The notes beneath the pieces are model-generated. The model was not told where the DNA came from. It searched no databases and saw only the letters and a program-made list of their open reading frames with translations. This document shows, one piece after another, positions 5,659 through 19,201 of a stretch of DNA of 64,000 nucleotides. Source of the DNA: Streptomycetaceae bacterium (GTDB taxonomy: Bacteria; Actinomycetota; Actinomycetes; Nanopelagicales; Nanopelagicaceae). The stretch lies in NCBI GenBank assembly GCA_027483765.1, contig JAIXTW010000003.1, positions 124,001-188,000 on the forward strand. Reading direction: 5' to 3'. The stretch's first letter is position 1; each line of letters begins with the position of its first letter. The position numbers and the translations under genes are program-made.

Positions 5659-7244
5659 CAGCACGCGAAAGAATCGCCGGTAACGTCGCAGGATATGTCG
5701 ATGATCGAACAGGTGCAGCCAAATGGATGAAGAAGAACCTCACCAAGGTCTTCCCTGATCACTGGTCGTTCTTACTTGGCGAAATCTGCCTTTACTCATT
5801 CGTCATTCTTCTTCTCTCAGGTACTTTCCTCACCTTCTGGTTCGATCCATCAATGCGTGAAGTTATCTATGAAGGTTCATACGAACCACTGCAAGGCTTA
5901 GAAATGTCAGCGGCCTACGCGTCTACACTCGATATTTCATTTGAAGTTCGCGGTGGATTGCTCATGCGTCAGATTCACCACTGGGCCGCGCTTATATTCA
6001 TGGTGGGCATCGTTGTGCACTTGATGCGCGTCTATTTCACAGGTGCGTTCCGTAAGCCACGTGAATTCAACTGGATCATCGGTGTCGGACTTCTTACTCT
6101 TGGAATCGTCGAAGGCTTCTTGGGTTACTCACTTCCTGATGACCTACTTTCAGGAACAGGTATCCGAATAGCGGAAGCGATTATTCAAGCGCTACCGGTA
6201 GTCGGTTCATACCTTGCCTTCTTTGCATTTGGCGGTGCATTCCCAGGCGTAGCTTTCATTCCACGCATCTATACCGTGCACGTCTTACTTCTTCCAGGAA
6301 TTTTCCTCGCCCTCATTACCGTTCACTTAATGCTTGTCTGGTACCAGAAGCACACTCAATTCCCAGGTCCAGGCCGCACCGAAAAGAACGTTGTTGGCTA
6401 CCCACTTATGCCTGTCTATATGGCTAAAGCTGGTGGATTCTTCTTTATCGTCTTCGGTGTAACGGCATTCCTCGGCGCCGTCGCATCCATTAATCCGATT
6501 TGGTTATATGGGCCGTACACACCTGGACAAGTTTCAGCCGGTTCGCAGCCCGATTGGTATATGGGTTGGCTCGACGGACTAGTTCGTATGGCTCCCCCAC
6601 TTGAGACAGTGACATTTGGCTACACGATTTCATGGAACATTTTGATTCCGGGGTTGATCTTGCCTGGAATTATGTTTACTGGGTTAGCGCTCTACCCATT
6701 TATCGAGAGCTGGGCAACTGGAGATAAGCGCGAGCACCATCTCCTTGATCGCCCACGCAATGCACCAACTCGTACCGCAATCGGAGCTATGGCGCTGACC
6801 TTCACACTCGTATCACTTATTAACGGTGGTAACGACATCATTGCGACAACCTTTGATCTCACCATTAATCAGATGATGTGGTTCTCTCGTATTGCAATCA
6901 TTGTTCTGCCACCACTTGCGTACGTAATTACTAAGCGTCTCTGCCTCTCACTTCAAAGAGCTGACCGTGACTTGGTGCTTCATGGACGCGAAACAGGTCG
7001 CTTGGTACGTATGCCTAATGGTGAATTCACCGAGATTCATGAGCCAATCTCACCTGAAAAGGCCTGGCTCTTGACCTCACATGAACAACTTGCTCCGCTA
7101 GAACTTCCTGAATACGACGGTGCCGGTGTCCGTAGACCAGCAGCAATCAAGAACAAGATTCGCAATCGGATATCTCGTTCAATGGCTACTGCGGTACCTA
7201 AGGCAACAGAGACCGAACGTAAAGAGCTAGAGGGTCACCACTAG
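5655..7244 (+). CDS. qcrB: cytochrome b subunit of the bc1 complex
   Basis: A 529-residue multispan membrane protein that oxidises menaquinol. Histidine-bearing helices HHWAALIFMVGIVVH and HVLLLPGIFLALITVH supply the two b-heme ligand pairs. The actinobacterial C-terminal extension after the last helices (about residues 440-529) is hydrophilic. The start is the ATG at 5655, overlapping the qcrA stop. It ends the plus-strand operon; the next gene, convergent, ends ten bases away. Confidence 0.97.
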   Translation: MTARERIAGNVAGYVDDRTGAAKWMKKNLTKVFPDHWSFLLGEICLYSFVILLLSGTFLTFWFDPSMREVIYEGSYEPLQGLEMSAAYASTLDISFEVRGGLLMRQIHHWAALIFMVGIVVHLMRVYFTGAFRKPREFNWIIGVGLLTLGIVEGFLGYSLPDDLLSGTGIRIAEAIIQALPVVGSYLAFFAFGGAFPGVAFIPRIYTVHVLLLPGIFLALITVHLMLVWYQKHTQFPGPGRTEKNVVGYPLMPVYMAKAGGFFFIVFGVTAFLGAVASINPIWLYGPYTPGQVSAGSQPDWYMGWLDGLVRMAPPLETVTFGYTISWNILIPGLILPGIMFTGLALYPFIESWATGDKREHHLLDRPRNAPTRTAIGAMALTFTLVSLINGGNDIIATTFDLTINQMMWFSRIAIIVLPPLAYVITKRLCLSLQRADRDLVLHGRETGRLVRMPNGEFTEIHEPISPEKAWLLTSHEQLAPLELPEYDGAGVRRPAAIKNKIRNRISRSMATAVPKATETERKELEGHH

Positions 7245-7254
7245 TCACGAGAAG

Positions 7255-8118
7255 TTAGTTTTGCAGTACTAAAGCAACGCCCAGCGTGGTCATAGCGATT
7301 CCTATGAACCCCTGGGCGTTGATCTTTTCACCGAAAAGAATGTAGGTCTCAAGCACTGCAATAGGTGGAACCAAGTAGAAGAGGGAAGAAACCTTCGCCG
7401 CCGTTCCGCGATTGAGCAGCCAGAAGAAAAGTAGAAGTGCCGCAATTGATGTCACACCGACCGCCCACAGCATGGCGAAGAAGCCACTCTTGGTTAGGTG
7501 AAAGTCGGTGGCACCCATGATGAAGGAGACGATCAGTAATACCACTCCAGAAATTGCAAACTGGTAGGTAGTTCCAATAAGAAGCGGAACTGAGCGACCA
7601 ATCTTTTTCTGGAGCAACGTTCCAACCGTGCTACCAAGCAGGGCTAGCGTTAAGAGCGTAAGCGAAGTTACGCTAAATCCCGATGTGCCAGACATCTTCG
7701 GCAGGATTACAAAAACCACTCCAATGAAACCGAGTACTAGTCCAACTTGCTGTTTTCGCGAGAGCGGTTCACTCAAAAGTTGGACTGCTACAACGGAGAC
7801 CAAGACCGGCTGCATACTTGTGATAACCGATGAGAGCCCAGCAGGTGCACCCAAGCCAATCGCGTACCAAACTCCTGCCAAATACATGGCATGCAGGCAT
7901 ACCCCGATCAGCAATGAGGCTAGGAAATCAGAGCGAGATATCTTGATAGGCGCCCGCATAACAAGAGCAATAGCGAAGAGAATGAGTGCGGCGGCAATCA
8001 ATCTGATTGCTAGGAAATAGATCGGATCACCGGATGAAAATGCATACTTTGCTACAACGAATCCTGAACTCCAAATAAGAACGAAGATCCAGGGCGCGAG
8101 AGCCACTAGCCGTCGCAT
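7255..8118 (-). CDS. EamA-family (DMT) transporter
   Basis: A 287-residue protein with about ten hydrophobic helices in two homologous halves, typical of the drug/metabolite transporter superfamily. The N-terminal half starts with WIFVLIWSSGFVVAKYAFSS, and the GGYVLLS-like end of repeat two is replaced by FIGIAMTTLGVALVLQN. The substrate cannot be read from the sequence; relatives export amino acids or metabolites. It sits between qcrB and ctaF, splitting the respiratory cluster, where mycobacteria have other genes. It is likely read separately from the ctaC-ctaD-ctaF operon, which ends 32 bases upstream of it. Confidence 0.85.
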   Translation of the reverse strand: MRRLVALAPWIFVLIWSSGFVVAKYAFSSGDPIYFLAIRLIAAALILFAIALVMRAPIKISRSDFLASLLIGVCLHAMYLAGVWYAIGLGAPAGLSSVITSMQPVLVSVVAVQLLSEPLSRKQQVGLVLGFIGVVFVILPKMSGTSGFSVTSLTLLTLALLGSTVGTLLQKKIGRSVPLLIGTTYQFAISGVVLLIVSFIMGATDFHLTKSGFFAMLWAVGVTSIAALLLFFWLLNRGTAAKVSSLFYLVPPIAVLETYILFGEKINAQGFIGIAMTTLGVALVLQN

Positions 8119-8149
8119 TGTGACCTAAGACGTAATTCTTGAAACGATC

Positions 8150-8554
8150 TTAGTGAGAACTATTCGAGAGCGGCTTTTCGTACTCGGTAACCATCCCGAT
8201 GATGCTGATAATCAGTGCACCCAGTGCAATCAAGACCATCCACCAACCGATAATCAGTCCAAGGCCCATTGCAGTTGCACTAAGCGCTACCGGAAGTGGC
8301 CACCATGAATGTGGGCTGTAGAAGCCAAGCTCCCCAGCATCATCTGCAATCTCAGCTTCGAGATTATCTGAAGGAATCGCGACGCCAATTCGCTTCTGGG
8401 TAAACCATACGTAGAAGCCCACCATTCCGGCCAGACAAGCTGACAGTGTCATTCCAGTAATCCCCACTGCTTCGCCACCGACGAAGTAGTAAACCACTGC
8501 CATAATCACATAGAAAACTGAGAGCCCGGAGAAGAGTTTCCAATTTGCATTCAT
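8150..8554 (-). CDS. ctaF: cytochrome c oxidase subunit IV, actinobacterial type
   Basis: A 134-residue membrane protein with four hydrophobic segments. It has the length and arrangement of actinobacterial CtaF, a small accessory subunit of the aa3 oxidase unrelated to proteobacterial subunit IV. The SPHSWWPLPVALSA segment is characteristic. It starts two bases after the ctaD stop and is the last gene of the ctaC-ctaD-ctaF operon. The call relies on both context and sequence. Confidence 0.93.
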   Translation of the reverse strand: MNANWKLFSGLSVFYVIMAVVYYFVGGEAVGITGMTLSACLAGMVGFYVWFTQKRIGVAIPSDNLEAEIADDAGELGFYSPHSWWPLPVALSATAMGLGLIIGWWMVLIALGALIISIIGMVTEYEKPLSNSSH

Positions 8555-8556
8555 GC

Positions 8557-10215
8557 TTAGTGTCCTTCGGTGGTGATGTGTGGATGGTGTAAATCAAATG
8601 CAGGTCGCTCCGAGCGAATGCGTGGCATCGAATTAAAGTTATGGCGCGGAGGTGGACATGTTGTGGCCCACTCGAGAGATGATCCGTAACCCCAAGGGTC
8701 ATCAACTTCAACTTTTGGAGAGTTACGAGTAATCCATACGTTAATGAAGAACGGAATCATGGATAGAGCCAGCAAGAATGAACCCACCGTTGAAATCATG
8801 TTCATGCCAGTAAATCCATCGGTGGCCAGGTAATCGGCGTAGCGACGTGGGAATCCCTTGATGCCAAGCCAGTGCTGAATGAGGAAGGTAAGGTGGAAAC
8901 CGAAGAAGAGAGTCCAGAAGTGAATCTTTCCAAGACGCTCATTGAGCATGCGTCCGGTGAACTTTGGCCACCAGAAGTAGAAGCCAGCAAACATCGCAAA
9001 CACCACGGTTCCAAATAGTACGTAGTGGAAGTGCGCAACTACGAAGTAGGAGGCTGAGACGGCGAAATCAAGTGGAGGTGATGCCAAGATAATTCCGGTG
9101 ATGCCACCGAAGAGGAAGGTTACGAGGAACCCCATAACCCAAAGCATTGGTGTTTCAAATGTGACATGGCCACGCCACATGGTTCCAATCCAGTTAAAGA
9201 ACTTCACACCGGTAGGAACTCCGATAAGGAATGTCATGAATGAGAAGAATGGCAAGAGCACTTTTCCACTTGCGAACATATGGTGAGCCCATACCGCAAC
9301 CGAAAGCGCGGCAATAGCAATTGTTGCAGCGATGAGCCCTTTGTAACCAAAGATTGGCTTGCGGCTAAAGACCGGAAGAATTTCAGTAGCGATACCAAAG
9401 AATGGAAGCGCCAGAATATAAACCTCGGGGTGTCCAAAGAACCAGAACAAGTGTTGCCACAACATAGCTCCGCCGTTGGCCGGATCAAATATGTGGGTGC
9501 CAAAGAGGCGATCAGATTCCAATCCAAGTAACGCTGCCGCTAGCGGTGGAAATGCTAATAGAACGAGAATTGATGTAAGCAGAACGTTCCACGAAAAGAT
9601 TGACATACGGAACATCGTCATTCCTGGAGCACGCATTGTGAAAATAGTTGTTATGAAGTTAACGCCACCAAGAATTGTTCCCAGGCCTGAAATTGCCAAC
9701 CCCATGATCCACAGGTCGCCACCGATTCCAGGTGAGTAAGTCGAGTTAGAAAGTGGTGCATATGCGGTCCATCCGAATGATGCTGCTCCGCCCGGAGTTA
9801 AGAATCCAGCAACAGCCTGAATAGATCCAAAGAGGAAGAGCCAGTACGAAAGCATATTAAGCCGTGGGAATGCAACATCGGCAGCGCCGATTTGCAGCGG
9901 CATGATCACATTGGCGAAGCCAACAAAGAGCGGCGTTGCAAACATCAATAACATGATGGTTCCGTGCATAGTAAAAATCTGGTTGTACTGCTCGACGCTT
10001 AGGAACTGCATTCCAGGGCGAGTAAGTTCAACGCGAAGGAGCAGCGCTAGGACACCACCGATAAGGAACCAGACGAAAGAAGTTGCAAGGTAGAGATAAC
10101 CGATGCGCTTATGGTCGGTCGAGGTGATGGTCTTTACAAATTGTGAGCCGAGCGAAGTTTTTTGTACTCCTTGGCGAGGTGCCGAAATCGTTGGACGTTC
10201 TGCATAAGTGGTCAT
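8557..10215 (-). CDS. ctaD: cytochrome c oxidase subunit I
   Basis: A 552-residue, 12-helix heme-copper oxidase core of the aa3 type. The heme a histidine is in MHGTIMLLM. The CuB site is [17 protein letters not shown], with the cross-linking His-Tyr pair, plus WAHHMF. The distal histidines are in [10 protein letters not shown]. It reduces oxygen to water and pumps protons. Its ATG overlaps the ctaC TGA (ATGA), so ctaC and ctaD are translationally coupled; ctaF follows two bases after. Confidence 0.98.
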
Positions 10216-15224: not shown

Positions 15225-15362
15225 AGCCGACGTATGGTTTGGTTCGACCACAACTAAATAGATATCTCCGTAGGGGAAGTTCGGTGCAAATCCGACGCTG
15301 ACCCGCAACCGTAAGAGAAGTTGAGCTATCAACTAATTAAGTCGGATTACCTATCGAGATAT
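15225..15362 (+). ncRNA. cobalamin riboswitch aptamer
   Basis: The core carries the B12-box elements in order: GGGGAAGTTCGGTGCAAATC (15273-15292), then CGACGCTGACCCGCAACCGT (to 15312), and further on AAGTCGGATTACC (15339-15351). TCGG and CCGA form the P5 hairpin around GGTGCAAAT. GATATCTC (15261-15268) can pair with GAGATATT (15355-15362) to close the core. It is upstream of an ECF transporter operon on the same strand, which fits B12-repressed vitamin uptake. Exact 5' edge is approximate. Confidence 0.93.
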
Positions 15363-15375
15363 TTGCAATCGACAA

Positions 15376-15433
15376 ACACCCGCCGAGGTTTGCGGGGTGT
15401 AGTCCAACAGTTATTAGTGCACCCGCACTTTTT
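15376..15433 (+). terminator. riboswitch expression platform: competing hairpins and intrinsic terminator
   Basis: Arm 15376-15383 (ACACCCGC) can pair with 15392-15400 (GCGGGGTGT). The same second arm can instead pair with 15420-15426 (CACCCGC), with a U-A and a U-G pair extending the stem and one bulged G. This second hairpin is followed two bases later by five Ts (15429-15433), the form of an intrinsic terminator. The first hairpin would act as antiterminator. The pairings are mutually exclusive. That ligand binding chooses between them is inferred. Confidence 0.65.
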
Positions 15434-15482: not shown

Positions 15483-16019
15483 ATGAATAAAAATAGAACA
15501 CCATTACTTATTGCAATTCTTCTCATTGCATCTCAAGCTATCTCCATCACGCCATCCAGCGCAGCCGCCAAGGGCTATCGCTACTGGGGCTACTTCCAAG
15601 CTGCTCCAAATGCCACCCAATGGACTGCTGCTATGACCGGGCCAACAGTGGATATCAAAGATGGCGCAGTAGAAGGATGGTCATTTGTCTTTAGTAGCGA
15701 TGACATTCCATCGGTTGCGCCATCAGTAAAGCCAGATTTCGCTGCCATCTGTGGAAAGACAAAGGCAACTCCGGGCATGAAGCGAATCGGACTCGTGATC
15801 GATTTCGGCAATAAGGCATATGCCCCAAAGGGTGAAAAGGTGCAGAAGACGATTACTCGCTGCGTGACAACGGCAATGCGTTCACAAGGTATTGATGTCT
15901 TGGGTCAAGTGGTCAAAGTTCGAGCGGCTGAATCCGGCCTCATCTGTGGATTTAACGGATACCCAAAGAAAGAATGTGGCGTTGAGATAGCCGCACCTGC
16001 TGCACTTCTTAAAAAGTAA
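15483..16019 (+). CDS. secreted SCO2322-family protein of a B12-regulated ECF operon
   Basis: A 178-residue protein with a signal peptide (hydrophobic residues 8-22, alanines at 27-29 as likely cleavage site). The mature domain has family-like segments GYRYWGYF, AVEGWSFVFSSDD, DFAAICGKT, KRIGLVIDFG and LICGFNGYPKKECG. I recall these from the actinobacterial SCO2322 family, of unknown function, also found beside ECF transporters. Four cysteines (90, 127, 155, 165) could form two disulfides outside the cell. There is no C-terminal membrane segment. It is the first gene after the cobalamin riboswitch, so a role in capture or handling of a corrinoid is a reasonable inference, not a demonstrated one. 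Confidence 0.8.
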   Translation: MNKNRTPLLIAILLIASQAISITPSSAAAKGYRYWGYFQAAPNATQWTAAMTGPTVDIKDGAVEGWSFVFSSDDIPSVAPSVKPDFAAICGKTKATPGMKRIGLVIDFGNKAYAPKGEKVQKTITRCVTTAMRSQGIDVLGQVVKVRAAESGLICGFNGYPKKECGVEIAAPAALLKK

Positions 16020-16032
16020 ACCAGAACAAGAT

Positions 16033-16776
16033 ATGAATAAACCGCTACACCCACTCACTATGTGGATCTGGTCTCTGATTCTTGCAGTTGGAGTCGTGGT
16101 CTTAGATAACGCATGGGTTGCTTTAGCAACGGTGGGTGTGGCGGTGTTATTCGTTCGGGCGCGATCCGATGGTTCGCCATGGAACGCAACTTTCTGGTGG
16201 TCTCTGCGCTTTGGCGCATTCGTGATTTCAGTTCGAGTCCTCATTGGAATACTTATTGGAATACCAATTCCTGGAACGGTGCTTTTTACGCTTCCGATTC
16301 TGGATCTTCCTTCATGGATGTCCGGCATCCGAGTCGGCGGAGCGGTCACATTGGAACGGCTCTCTTCATCAGTGCATGAAGGAATCATCATTGCAACCAT
16401 GATTGCACTCTTCGGTGCCGCCTCCGCTCTGACAAGTCCTCATAAATTACTCAGAGTCCTGCCAGTTTTTATTTACGAAGTGGGAGTGACACTGGTCATT
16501 GCAACATCAGTCTTTCCGCAATTAACCCAGAGTGTGAAACGCATTAGAAAAGCTCAATACATGCGCGGAATGGACAAAGTGTCGCTGCGATCCATCGCAC
16601 TTCCACTTCTTGAGGAGACCTTGACCCGCTCATTGCAACTTGCGCAATCTATGGATTCACGAGGATATGGCGCCAGTCGAAAGAGATCTCGTTACCGACC
16701 GGCACCGTGGTTGGCGCGCGATTCTTGGTTTGTTTTTTCAGCCGTTGTTGCTGCGTCGGCGATGGTCGCAGCATGA
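16033..16776 (+). CDS. ECF transporter T component (CbiQ-like)
   Basis: A 247-residue membrane protein with about five helices, the transmembrane coupling subunit of an energy-coupling factor importer. The two coupling motifs contacting the ATPases are KAQYMRGMD (about residues 175-183) and LQLAQSMDSRGYGAS (about 201-215), matching the Ala-Arg-Gly pattern of T components. It begins 13 bases after the secreted protein gene. Its TGA overlaps the ATPase start (ATGA), so the operon is translationally coupled. Confidence 0.9.
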   Translation: MNKPLHPLTMWIWSLILAVGVVVLDNAWVALATVGVAVLFVRARSDGSPWNATFWWSLRFGAFVISVRVLIGILIGIPIPGTVLFTLPILDLPSWMSGIRVGGAVTLERLSSSVHEGIIIATMIALFGAASALTSPHKLLRVLPVFIYEVGVTLVIATSVFPQLTQSVKRIRKAQYMRGMDKVSLRSIALPLLEETLTRSLQLAQSMDSRGYGASRKRSRYRPAPWLARDSWFVFSAVVAASAMVAA

Positions 16777-18377
16777 TTACATTTTCCAACGTTTCACTCA
16801 TCTATCCACACTCCACTAAGACGGTGCTGGAAGATCTCAACTGTGAAATTCAAGAGGGTGAGATGGTCTTAGTAATGGGCCACACCGGGTCGGGAAAATC
16901 ATCGCTCCTGCGCCTCATTAACGGACTAGTCCCCCATCACACCGGTGGCATCCTGGCTGGCGATATCTCGGTTGATGGTTTATCCACTCGAGAGCTAAAG
17001 CCAGGGGCGTTGGCACACCTGGTCGGAATCGTCGGCCAAAATCCAATCAATGGTTTCGTTACGGATGTGGTGGAAGAGGAGATTGCTTTTGGCATGGAGG
17101 CGTTGAACTTTCCACCTGATGTCATGCGAAAGCGCGTGGAAGAAGTCCTCGATCTACTGAGTTTGAATGCAGTGCGCGCAAGAGCGATTAGTTCACTCAG
17201 CGGCGGAGAGCAGCAACGAGTAGCAATTGCAGCGGCGTTAGTAATGCACCCAAAAGTTTTAGTCCTGGATGAACCAACTAGCGCACTAGATCCCATTGCA
17301 GCAGAAGAAGTGCTCTCCGTCTTACACCGGCTTGTTCACGACTTAAGCGTTACAGTTATTATGGCCGAACATCGATTAGAGCGAGTGATTCAATTTGTTG
17401 ACCGCATTATCTATATCGAAGGAAATGGTGAAACTTCGATAGGAAGTGCGGAAGAGATTCTCAGTAAATCAGAGCTTGTCCCGCCCATCATTAGACTTGC
17501 GCGTGCCCTTAATTTAAATGAATTTGGAACCAGCGTCCGGGAAGTTCGTCGACTTACAGCAGATGTCCGAGGTATAGCCGTTGCAGAAATTGATAGTGCA
17601 ACTCGGGTGCGCACTCCGGCAATCGAAGTGGATTCATTGACAGTTAAATACGGGGACGATTTTGCACTCCGTGGCGTTTCAACCTCAATTGGTAAGGGCG
17701 AGATCGTCGCTCTCATGGGACGCAATGGCGCTGGGAAGAGCTCGCTCCTGGAAACAATTGTGGGTGTCTTGAAACCGAGCTCGGGTGCAGTGCGCGTTTA
17801 TCAGCAAGACCCGGCAGAACTCGCTGGAAAGAGTCGTCGCAAACGAATTGGCTACGTCCCGCAAGAGCCTTCGGACTTGCTCTACCACCAGAGCGTTCGC
17901 CAAGAATGCCAAGAGGCTGACCTTCTAGCGGGACTTGCATCGGGCACCACACTTTCATTTCTCGACAAACTGGTGCCACGAATTTCTCACGATGCCCATC
18001 CGCACGATCTTTCGGAAGGTCAACGTTTAGCTTTAGTTTTAAGCATCGTGCTCTCCGGAAATCCTCAGCTCCTGATTCTCGATGAGCCAACTCGCGGCTT
18101 GGATTACCAAGCCAAATCTCTCTTTACGCGCGCACTCAAGGAGTATGCGAGCACACTGAACTACCCGGTTCTTCTCGCTACACATGATGTCGAGTTAGTA
18201 GCCGAGTTAGCGGACCGTGTTATTTTCTTAGCCGAAGGTGAAATTGTCGCTGATGGTTCGACTCTTGATGTCTTACTTAGCTCACCTGCCTTTGCACCGC
18301 AGGTCGCCAAAATCATGTCACCACAACCGTGGCTCACCGTTGACCATGTTGTTTCTGCCTTAGCGGAGAAGTTATGA
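16773..18377 (+). CDS. fused double ECF ATPase (energy-coupling factor A/A')
   Basis: A 534-residue protein containing two ABC ATPase domains. Domain 1: Walker A GHTGSGKSS, Q-loop GIVGQNP, signature LSGGEQQR, Walker B VLVLDEPTSALD, H-loop MAEHR. Domain 2 (from about residue 290): Walker A GRNGAGKSS, Q-loop YVPQEP, signature LSEGQR, Walker B LLILDEPTRGLD, H-loop LATHD. The second signature is non-canonical (Glu for Gly). Fused A-A' subunits power ECF vitamin importers. I start at the ATG overlapping the T-component stop; the frame is open further upstream but inside that gene. Confidence 0.94.
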   Translation: MITFSNVSLIYPHSTKTVLEDLNCEIQEGEMVLVMGHTGSGKSSLLRLINGLVPHHTGGILAGDISVDGLSTRELKPGALAHLVGIVGQNPINGFVTDVVEEEIAFGMEALNFPPDVMRKRVEEVLDLLSLNAVRARAISSLSGGEQQRVAIAAALVMHPKVLVLDEPTSALDPIAAEEVLSVLHRLVHDLSVTVIMAEHRLERVIQFVDRIIYIEGNGETSIGSAEEILSKSELVPPIIRLARALNLNEFGTSVREVRRLTADVRGIAVAEIDSATRVRTPAIEVDSLTVKYGDDFALRGVSTSIGKGEIVALMGRNGAGKSSLLETIVGVLKPSSGAVRVYQQDPAELAGKSRRKRIGYVPQEPSDLLYHQSVRQECQEADLLAGLASGTTLSFLDKLVPRISHDAHPHDLSEGQRLALVLSIVLSGNPQLLILDEPTRGLDYQAKSLFTRALKEYASTLNYPVLLATHDVELVAELADRVIFLAEGEIVADGSTLDVLLSSPAFAPQVAKIMSPQPWLTVDHVVSALAEKL

Positions 18378-19201
18378 AGACCAGAAACGTACTGACTTTC
18401 TCGAAAGTACATCTCGTGGTTTTAGTAGCCACAAGCCTGATTGGAGCGCTCGGATTTCTCTGGCCATTTCTTGTCTCCACTCAAGTCGCTCATCCGCAGT
18501 GGATATTTCTCTGTGCCACACCACTTGCCCTTGCACTCTTCTTAATCAGCGTTAGTAATGGCGCACTCGATGCGAAATCAGTTGCCTTGCTCGCGCTTCT
18601 TTCGGCTCTGGTGGCCGCACTTCGACCACTGGGAACCGGCGCCGTAGGTATTGAACCCATGTGGTTCCTTCTCATTTTAAGCGCCCGCGTCTTTGGCCCT
18701 TCATTTGGTTTTCTGCTGGGCGCGTTGTCAATGTTGGTCTCGGCCTTGATTACCGGCGGTACCGGTCCATGGCTTGCCTATCAATGTTTCGCTGCTGCTT
18801 GGATTGGATTGGGCGTTGGTCTCATCCCACGACGTGTTCGTGGATTACTAGAGATTGCGGCACTGGTTGGCTATGCAATTCTCGCCGCTCAGTTCTTTGG
18901 AATAGCGATGGATCTACAGTTCTGGCCTTGGTATCTGGGTAGCGATTCGCAGCTATCTTTTAGTGCAGGTGCTCCCCTGGCGCAAAATCTCAGTAACTTT
19001 ATGAGCTACCACTTTCTATCCGCATTGGCATGGGATATTCCACGGGCGATTTTTACATCCGTCCTCATCATCATCACCGGGAAACCAGTGCTCGGTGCGC
19101 TACGACGGGCACATACTCGCGCCGCATTTCTTTCGCCGATTGAATTTAGAAATTTAACTACTAACGAACGTGCGATGGGGAAAATGGCAGCGAAACAATA
19201 G
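18374..19201 (+). CDS. ECF transporter S component, probably for cobalamin
   Basis: A 275-residue membrane protein with about six to seven helices and a hydrophobic, Gly/Ala-rich middle (GPSFGFLLGALSMLVSALITGG, split by a Gly-Gly turn) typical of substrate-binding S components. This stretch resembles the ALGxxxG-type surface that meets the T component. It overlaps the ATPase stop (ATGA). The riboswitch suggests cobalamin or a precursor as substrate; sequence alone does not prove it, and it is larger than many S components. Its last 41 bases overlap the convergent gcvT. Confidence 0.85.
   Translation: MKTRNVLTFSKVHLVVLVATSLIGALGFLWPFLVSTQVAHPQWIFLCATPLALALFLISVSNGALDAKSVALLALLSALVAALRPLGTGAVGIEPMWFLLILSARVFGPSFGFLLGALSMLVSALITGGTGPWLAYQCFAAAWIGLGVGLIPRRVRGLLEIAALVGYAILAAQFFGIAMDLQFWPWYLGSDSQLSFSAGAPLAQNLSNFMSYHFLSALAWDIPRAIFTSVLIIITGKPVLGALRRAHTRAAFLSPIEFRNLTTNERAMGKMAAKQ

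Follow-up and report, generated by a model that had tools for sequence, protein, structure and literature searches.

A secreted SCO2322-family protein at the head of a B12-controlled ECF operon, a putative circularly permuted relative of the transcobalamin beta domain

The window, by which we mean the whole 64-kb stretch of DNA analysed here, contains an operon under B12 control in which an AdoCbl riboswitch is followed, on one strand, by the gene for a secreted protein of the SCO2322 family and then by the genes for the T component, the fused ATPase and the S component of an ECF importer (Table 1). The transporter has a module of its own, as T, ATPase and S lie within a single operon, and the riboswitch, conserved upstream among relatives and the only element in the window to reach an Rfam gathering threshold, places the operon in the cobalamin regulon. 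Besides the Pfam match listed below, the fused ATPase scored 306.9 bits against TIGR04520, slightly below the cut-off of 315. Beyond the S gene, gcvT was recognised by eye on the opposite strand. The source genome comprises 1.29 Mb in 11 contigs.

Table 1. Features of the operon and of the protein encoded by its first gene (positions in the window)
Feature	Positions	Strand	Basis
AdoCbl (cobalamin) riboswitch aptamer	15248..15407	+	RF01482, 57 bits, gathering 50
SCO2322-family secreted protein, 178 aa	15483..16019	+	NF040672, 160 bits, cut-off 85
Signal peptide, about residues 1-28	15483..15566	+	By eye, without a program-predicted cleavage site
SCO2322 N-terminal half: putative beta-grasp strands 3-5 (RYWGYF, GxVEGWxF)	15561..15749	+	Resembles C-terminal part of unpermuted relatives
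SCO2322 C-terminal half: putative strands 1-2, helix, hairpin insert (RIGLVIDFG ... SGLICGFNGYPKKECG)	15750..15989	+	Resembles DUF4430 and, in unpermuted relatives, the N-terminal part
ECF T component, CbiQ type	16033..16776	+	PF02361, 39.1 bits, cut-off 25
ECF ATPase, two fused ABC domains	16773..18377	+	PF00005, two stretches
ECF S component, putatively corrinoid-specific	18374..19201	+	PF07155, 30.4 bits, cut-off 26.7

The product of the first gene begins with a Sec-type signal peptide, MNKNRTPLLIAILLIASQAISITPSSAAA, recognised by eye, and contains exactly four cysteines (residues 90, 127, 155 and 165), all of them past the signal peptide and invariant across 28 aligned members of the family. 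Its match to NF040672 (SCO2322_fam) spans positions 1-143 of 144 with an E value of 4.7e-47 and exceeds the curated cut-off, which makes the protein a member of this family; no Pfam family was matched at E values up to 1. The relatives from Streptomyces-like genomes (f3), and that from genome G430, end in a C-terminal hydrophobic segment and a basic tail, seen by eye, both of which are absent from the window protein. The closest relative listed among the best 80 of 583 comes from Candidatus Planktophila versatilis and is 90% identical across the domain, on which ground we take the source genome to be of the acI/Nanopelagicales type. The first-pass annotation had described a signal-peptide protein with four mature cysteines, placed first after a cobalamin riboswitch and ahead of T, ATPase and S, and both the sequence and the profile matches confirm this description.

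The same order of genes recurs in other genomes. We compared 32 SCO2322-bearing loci of 5-19 kb, 20 of them from Nanopelagicales, 11 from f3 and one from f5, and found a T gene downstream of SCO2322 in every one; a complete T-A-S series was present in 29, the three others lying at contig ends. An RF00174 match (E<=0.001) was detected upstream in all 20 Nanopelagicales genomes, in 8 of the 11 f3 genomes and in the single f5 genome, 15 of these 29 matches (10 Nanopelagicales, 4 f3, 1 f5) scoring below the Rfam gathering score of 31.5. In Nanopelagicales its distance from the SCO2322 domain match was 0.1-0.3 kb, and once 1.3 kb. Near SCO2322 of the remaining three f3 genomes (G107, G193 and G023; 3 of 11), neither RF00174 nor a B12 box was found. 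A scan of named genomes for relatives confirmed 583, of which the best 80, which are 55-90% identical and hence close kin, were used. T follows SCO2322 in 79 of these best 80 (T-A-S in 64, T-A in 12, T in 3), the remaining contig ends 3 nt past SCO2322, and every incomplete series is at a contig end. The B12 box pattern, allowing 6 or fewer mismatches and giving 0 matches over 3.45 million positions of shuffled sequence, precedes the gene in 76 of the 80; in the other four at most 150 nt of sequence lie upstream. A search of viral contigs gave three pattern matches and no relative. Because the arrangement is conserved across lineages, it is not a product of chance. Location of the homologues in B12-controlled ECF operons had been proposed as a check on the idea that SCO2322 is a dedicated secreted partner of the importer, and the conserved context strongly supports that idea.

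SCO2322 also accompanies the S component across 201 Nanopelagicales genomes. The former was found in 127 and the latter in 126: both together in 124, SCO2322 alone in 3 (G440, G463, G530), S alone in 2 (G446, G540) and neither in 72, the five discordant genomes all being in at least 110 contigs. As the genomes are related and not independent, these figures are given as counts and not as a probability. In four single-contig Nanopelagicales genomes (G416, G403, G406 and G414) neither SCO2322 nor the S component was found.

The substrate of the importer can be approached through its S component, for which PF07155 and PF12822 were the only Pfam matches. No match was obtained to the CbiM family (PF01891), and the cobalt transporter CbiMNQO was rejected as first choice on this ground. 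An AF2 model of S (pLDDT 76.4) aligns to FolT, ThiT and RibU chains, best to 7nnt_C (Z 13.9, rmsd 2.8, 163 aligned), a fold common to the S components of many vitamins. A phmmer search of PDB chain sequences with S returned nothing at E values up to 10; CbrT is not among the structural matches listed for the model, which excludes nothing. At its N terminus S has an extension of two predicted helices (window 18374-18556, model residues 1-61), located before the part aligned with most S components.

One could suppose that the imported compound, and the ligand of SCO2322, is no corrinoid but, for instance, cobalt, a precursor of corrinoids or a different vitamin, as S resembles no solved structure in sequence. 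We consider this scarcely probable, in view of the cobalamin riboswitch at most loci, of the assignment of S to PF07155 and PF12822 and not to the CbiM family, and of the need for B12 that is evident from the genome. NrdJ, which requires B12, is encoded there (612 bits, cut-off 399.95), as is a frame of 1175 aa with a B12-binding domain, probably MetH by its length and domain, another protein requiring B12. The available portion of one study reports acI bacteria to be without a cobalamin pathway (PMC5301498). Two cobalamin riboswitches were found in the source genome, and the second (contig C4:759-972, 98.7 bits) lies before nrdA/nrdB of class Ia, genes recognised by eye, the B12-dependent NrdJ being encoded elsewhere.

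An importer of another type was also considered as a candidate for B12 uptake. The sole FecCD-type permease found in the source genome (locus L222, 3141-5643 of contig C7) scored below the cut-off with all families listed (BtuC, 175.6 of 334), as did its substrate-binding protein (BtuF, 51.8 of 234; IsdE, 50.3 of 298.65), and neither of the cobalamin riboswitches lies at this operon. Next to the permease are genes for two secreted proteins with weak similarity to enediyne chromoproteins (NF040680, below cut-off).

Judged by profile alignment, SCO2322 is a circular permutant of actinobacterial proteins that occupy the same slot in their operons, with its two halves in swapped order. Among 396 genomes of the phylum, NF040672 matched in 54 and passed its cut-off in 13, and several of the matches below the cut-off came in two pieces, the order of which was swapped. 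With an HMM made from four SCO2322 members we searched for distant proteins, and in those from L017, L018, L019 and L020 (genomes G390, G134, G366 and G284) the match to the C-terminal half stands ahead of that to the N-terminal half, both with E<1e-6; other distant proteins matched mainly the N-terminal half, the other half being weak or absent. T adjoins the beta gene in 16 of the 17 distant loci (L017-L033), L031 being cut, and a gene for an alpha/alpha-toroid does so in 11. When the alignment of 28 SCO2322 sequences was rotated and compared with seven unpermuted sequences, the hhalign score rose from 96 over 61 columns to 185 over 117 columns, with a plateau at cuts 60-70, which is the linker between the halves; single halves scored 94 and 90. 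All seven unpermuted and all 28 permuted rows of the joint alignment share three cysteines, one Tyr-Trp pair and one further Trp.

The tree of permuted and unpermuted forms needs two changes, and a single origin is not rejected (p-AU 0.381); since long branches also meet there, we claim neither a single nor a repeated origin of the permutation. In one genome (G247, locus L079) an ORF at 5897-8779, upstream of ECF T-A-S, combines a toroid-like stretch (tblastn E 7e-8; 14 bits with Pfam toroid families, below their cut-offs) with cell wall binding repeats (PF04122, 131.7 bits) and, in tandem, two beta domains of the unpermuted form. Tandem duplication is the textbook intermediate of circular permutation, and this ORF is possibly such an intermediate. 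One f3 genome (G171, locus L081) has two operons, one with a permuted SCO2322 and one with an unpermuted beta domain; in the latter a weakly toroid-like gene (PF13243, 19.4 bits, cut-off 26.1) follows S.

The rotated order brings SCO2322 closer to a domain of animal B12 carriers. According to the portions available of two articles, DUF4430 is located in the C-terminus of these carriers (PMC4350170), and the C-terminal domain of transcobalamin is a beta-grasp of the SLBB superfamily (PMC1796856). Against a DUF4430 profile built from 19 actinobacterial sequences, hhalign scored 39.8 over 63 columns for SCO2322 in natural order, 44.8 over 95 when rotated, 35.2 over 96 for the unpermuted set and 48.1 over 97 for the joint profile. 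The maxima obtained with 100 column-shuffled DUF4430 profiles were 19.4, 20.9, 22.2 and 19.5, respectively; 84 decoy blocks reached 15.6 at most, and the reversed profile 11.7. The gain from rotation is just 5 points, but the match lengthens from 63 to 95 columns, so that similarity to DUF4430 extends over the domain. Most of the score comes from the C-terminal half, which reaches 38.2, compared with 10.9, a background value, for the N-terminal half by itself. Pfam's own DUF4430 (PF14478) did not match the protein in natural or in rotated order.

An AF2 model of SCO2322 (pLDDT 81.6, pTM 0.81) shows an order of elements that fits a rotated strand-strand-helix-hairpin-strand plan; the linear order of strand 1, strand 2, helix, hairpin and strands 3-4-5 is not that of SCO2322. 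Structure prediction had also been proposed as a check, and it gave an order compatible with a beta-grasp, while no relative in the PDB was found by Foldseek or VIA-align, both of which follow chain order (VIA-align returned one row, Z 2.6). Searched against PDB sequences, two beta-domain profiles gave E 0.09 at best. As its halves are swapped relative to the proteins of the same slot, we call SCO2322 a permuted relative, and not a member, of DUF4430/SLBB. The profile similarity suggests that its domain is related to the beta domain of transcobalamin and intrinsic factor.

In transcobalamin, as described in the available part of PMC1796856, a toroid and a beta-grasp domain enclose B12, so relatives of SCO2322 that come with a toroid would carry a split version of it. 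Directly upstream of SCO2322, a relative of the SCO2321 type was found in all 11 f3 loci. In G334, one of them, riboswitch and SCO2322 are separated by a gene that belongs to the SCO2321 family (NF053823, 592 bits, cut-off 300) and weakly matches a toroid family (PF00432, 27.2 bits, cut-off 26.5). A profile of three members of the toroid gene retrieved squalene-hopene cyclases from the PDB (E 2e-14). The unpermuted beta gene of G390 likewise has a toroid gene before it (PF13243, 43.2 bits, cut-off 26.1). No SCO2321-type relative was found at the f5 locus (n=1), and no toroid gene was found at the loci of the best 80 of the 583 relatives. Toroids were detected in 4 of the 201 Nanopelagicales genomes, all of genus g244, the copy in G430 scoring 206.8 with NF053823, below the cut-off. 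In the source genome, searches with an f3 protein, the profile and PF13243 gave no toroid, as domain or as partner, that would complete a two-domain transcobalamin; a diverged toroid could escape them.

That SCO2322 persists where a toroid was not found is what would be expected of a structural subunit. It could accordingly act as an extracellular accessory or assembly subunit that docks on S or stabilises it without binding corrinoid, and the near one-to-one co-occurrence of the two proteins would fit such a role. The kinship to a ligand-binding domain, the toroid partner of relatives and the conserved aromatic residues argue against this explanation, and we regard it as unlikely.

We favour, with a probability of roughly 0.7, a function of SCO2322 as a solo, permuted beta domain of transcobalamin type that captures corrinoid for the ECF importer. 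Scarcity of corrinoid would lead the AdoCbl riboswitch to permit expression of the operon, the direction of regulation being that of known cobalamin riboswitches. The SCO2322 protein would cross the membrane, catch corrinoid at the cell surface and pass it to the S component, through which the fused ATPase and the T component would power import. In the Streptomyces-like relatives, a separate alpha/alpha-toroid of SCO2321 type may complete a split transcobalamin; the beta domain of Planktophila would work on its own. Points that speak against this reading are the failure of Pfam's DUF4430 to match, the background score of the N-terminal half, the searches that gave no PDB relative, the toroid not found in the source genome, the three f3 genomes in which no riboswitch was found near SCO2322 and the presence of the FecCD-type permease. 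It is conceivable, if rather doubtful, that in Planktophila the S component replaces the alpha toroid and the permuted beta domain forms a lid over the corrinoid bound to S. This would amount to a transcobalamin-like sandwich of which one layer is secreted and the other belongs to a membrane transporter, in a pared-down importer that has an external subunit.

The first-pass annotation suggested that the secreted partner may capture, deliver or remodel corrinoids. Capture and delivery are favoured by the kinship of SCO2322 with the beta domain of transcobalamin type and by the toroid that accompanies it in relatives, while nothing was found in support of remodelling. Binding of corrinoid for storage, competition or remodelling, for example exchange of an axial ligand, instead of delivery to the ECF importer is in our opinion highly unlikely. 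An invariant cysteine could in principle act on cobalt; however, the cysteines look like structural disulfides, three of them being common to the unpermuted relatives, and the position of SCO2322 within the importer operon is fixed.

If capture of corrinoid by SCO2322 is true, it would provide a function for the SCO2321 (NF053823) and SCO2322 (NF040672) families, which exist in NCBIfam as names only and to the second of which the window gene belongs, and an example of an extracellular subunit dedicated to an ECF importer. The circular permutation would explain why domain searches have missed one of the two. The findings bear on the B12 supply of the abundant freshwater acI bacteria and on the kinship between bacterial B12 scavenging and animal B12 carriers. 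In a literature search, mostly without subscription journals, SCO2322 was not mentioned, and neither its permutation nor SCO2321 and SCO2322 as B12 binders were described. The first-pass view that the function of the family is undescribed holds in that no report of corrinoid binding by it was found, and not as regards the general role: in the portions available of these articles, secreted transcobalamin-like domains beside CbiO/CbiQ were predicted to scavenge B12 (Burroughs et al. 2007, PMC1796856), and the ECF module of acI bacteria was named a putative cobalamin transporter (Kang et al. 2017, PMC5301498). What is new here is that SCO2322 is a circular permutant.

Among known systems, BtuFCD likewise has a dedicated extracytoplasmic binder that feeds an ABC importer. 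The fold of BtuF is that of a binding protein, unrelated to the beta-grasp, whereas the window system would join a small domain of beta-grasp type to an ECF importer. ECF-CbrT of Lactobacillus delbrueckii is also an ECF importer of cobalamin; however, as far as the available portion of PMC5997447 goes, CbrT lies in an nrdJ-cbrS-cbrT-pduO cluster and no secreted partner is named, unlike in the window, where a secreted gene heads the T-A-S operon. The bacterial SLBB proteins of PMC1796856, as presented in its available part, are secreted and have CbiO/CbiQ-type neighbours, as SCO2322 does, and toroid fusions are known among them. They differ in coming from low-GC Gram-positives, planctomycetes and, less often, euryarchaea, and the string 'permut' is absent from the text of that article; SCO2322 is permuted and in Planktophila stands without a toroid. 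Compared with transcobalamin and intrinsic factor, whose beta domain is DUF4430 (PF14478), SCO2322 has strands 3-5 first and a toroid was not found in its source genome; yet it too is secreted, is similar over 95-97 columns and has the same order of elements once rotated, and in its relatives is partnered by an alpha/alpha-toroid.
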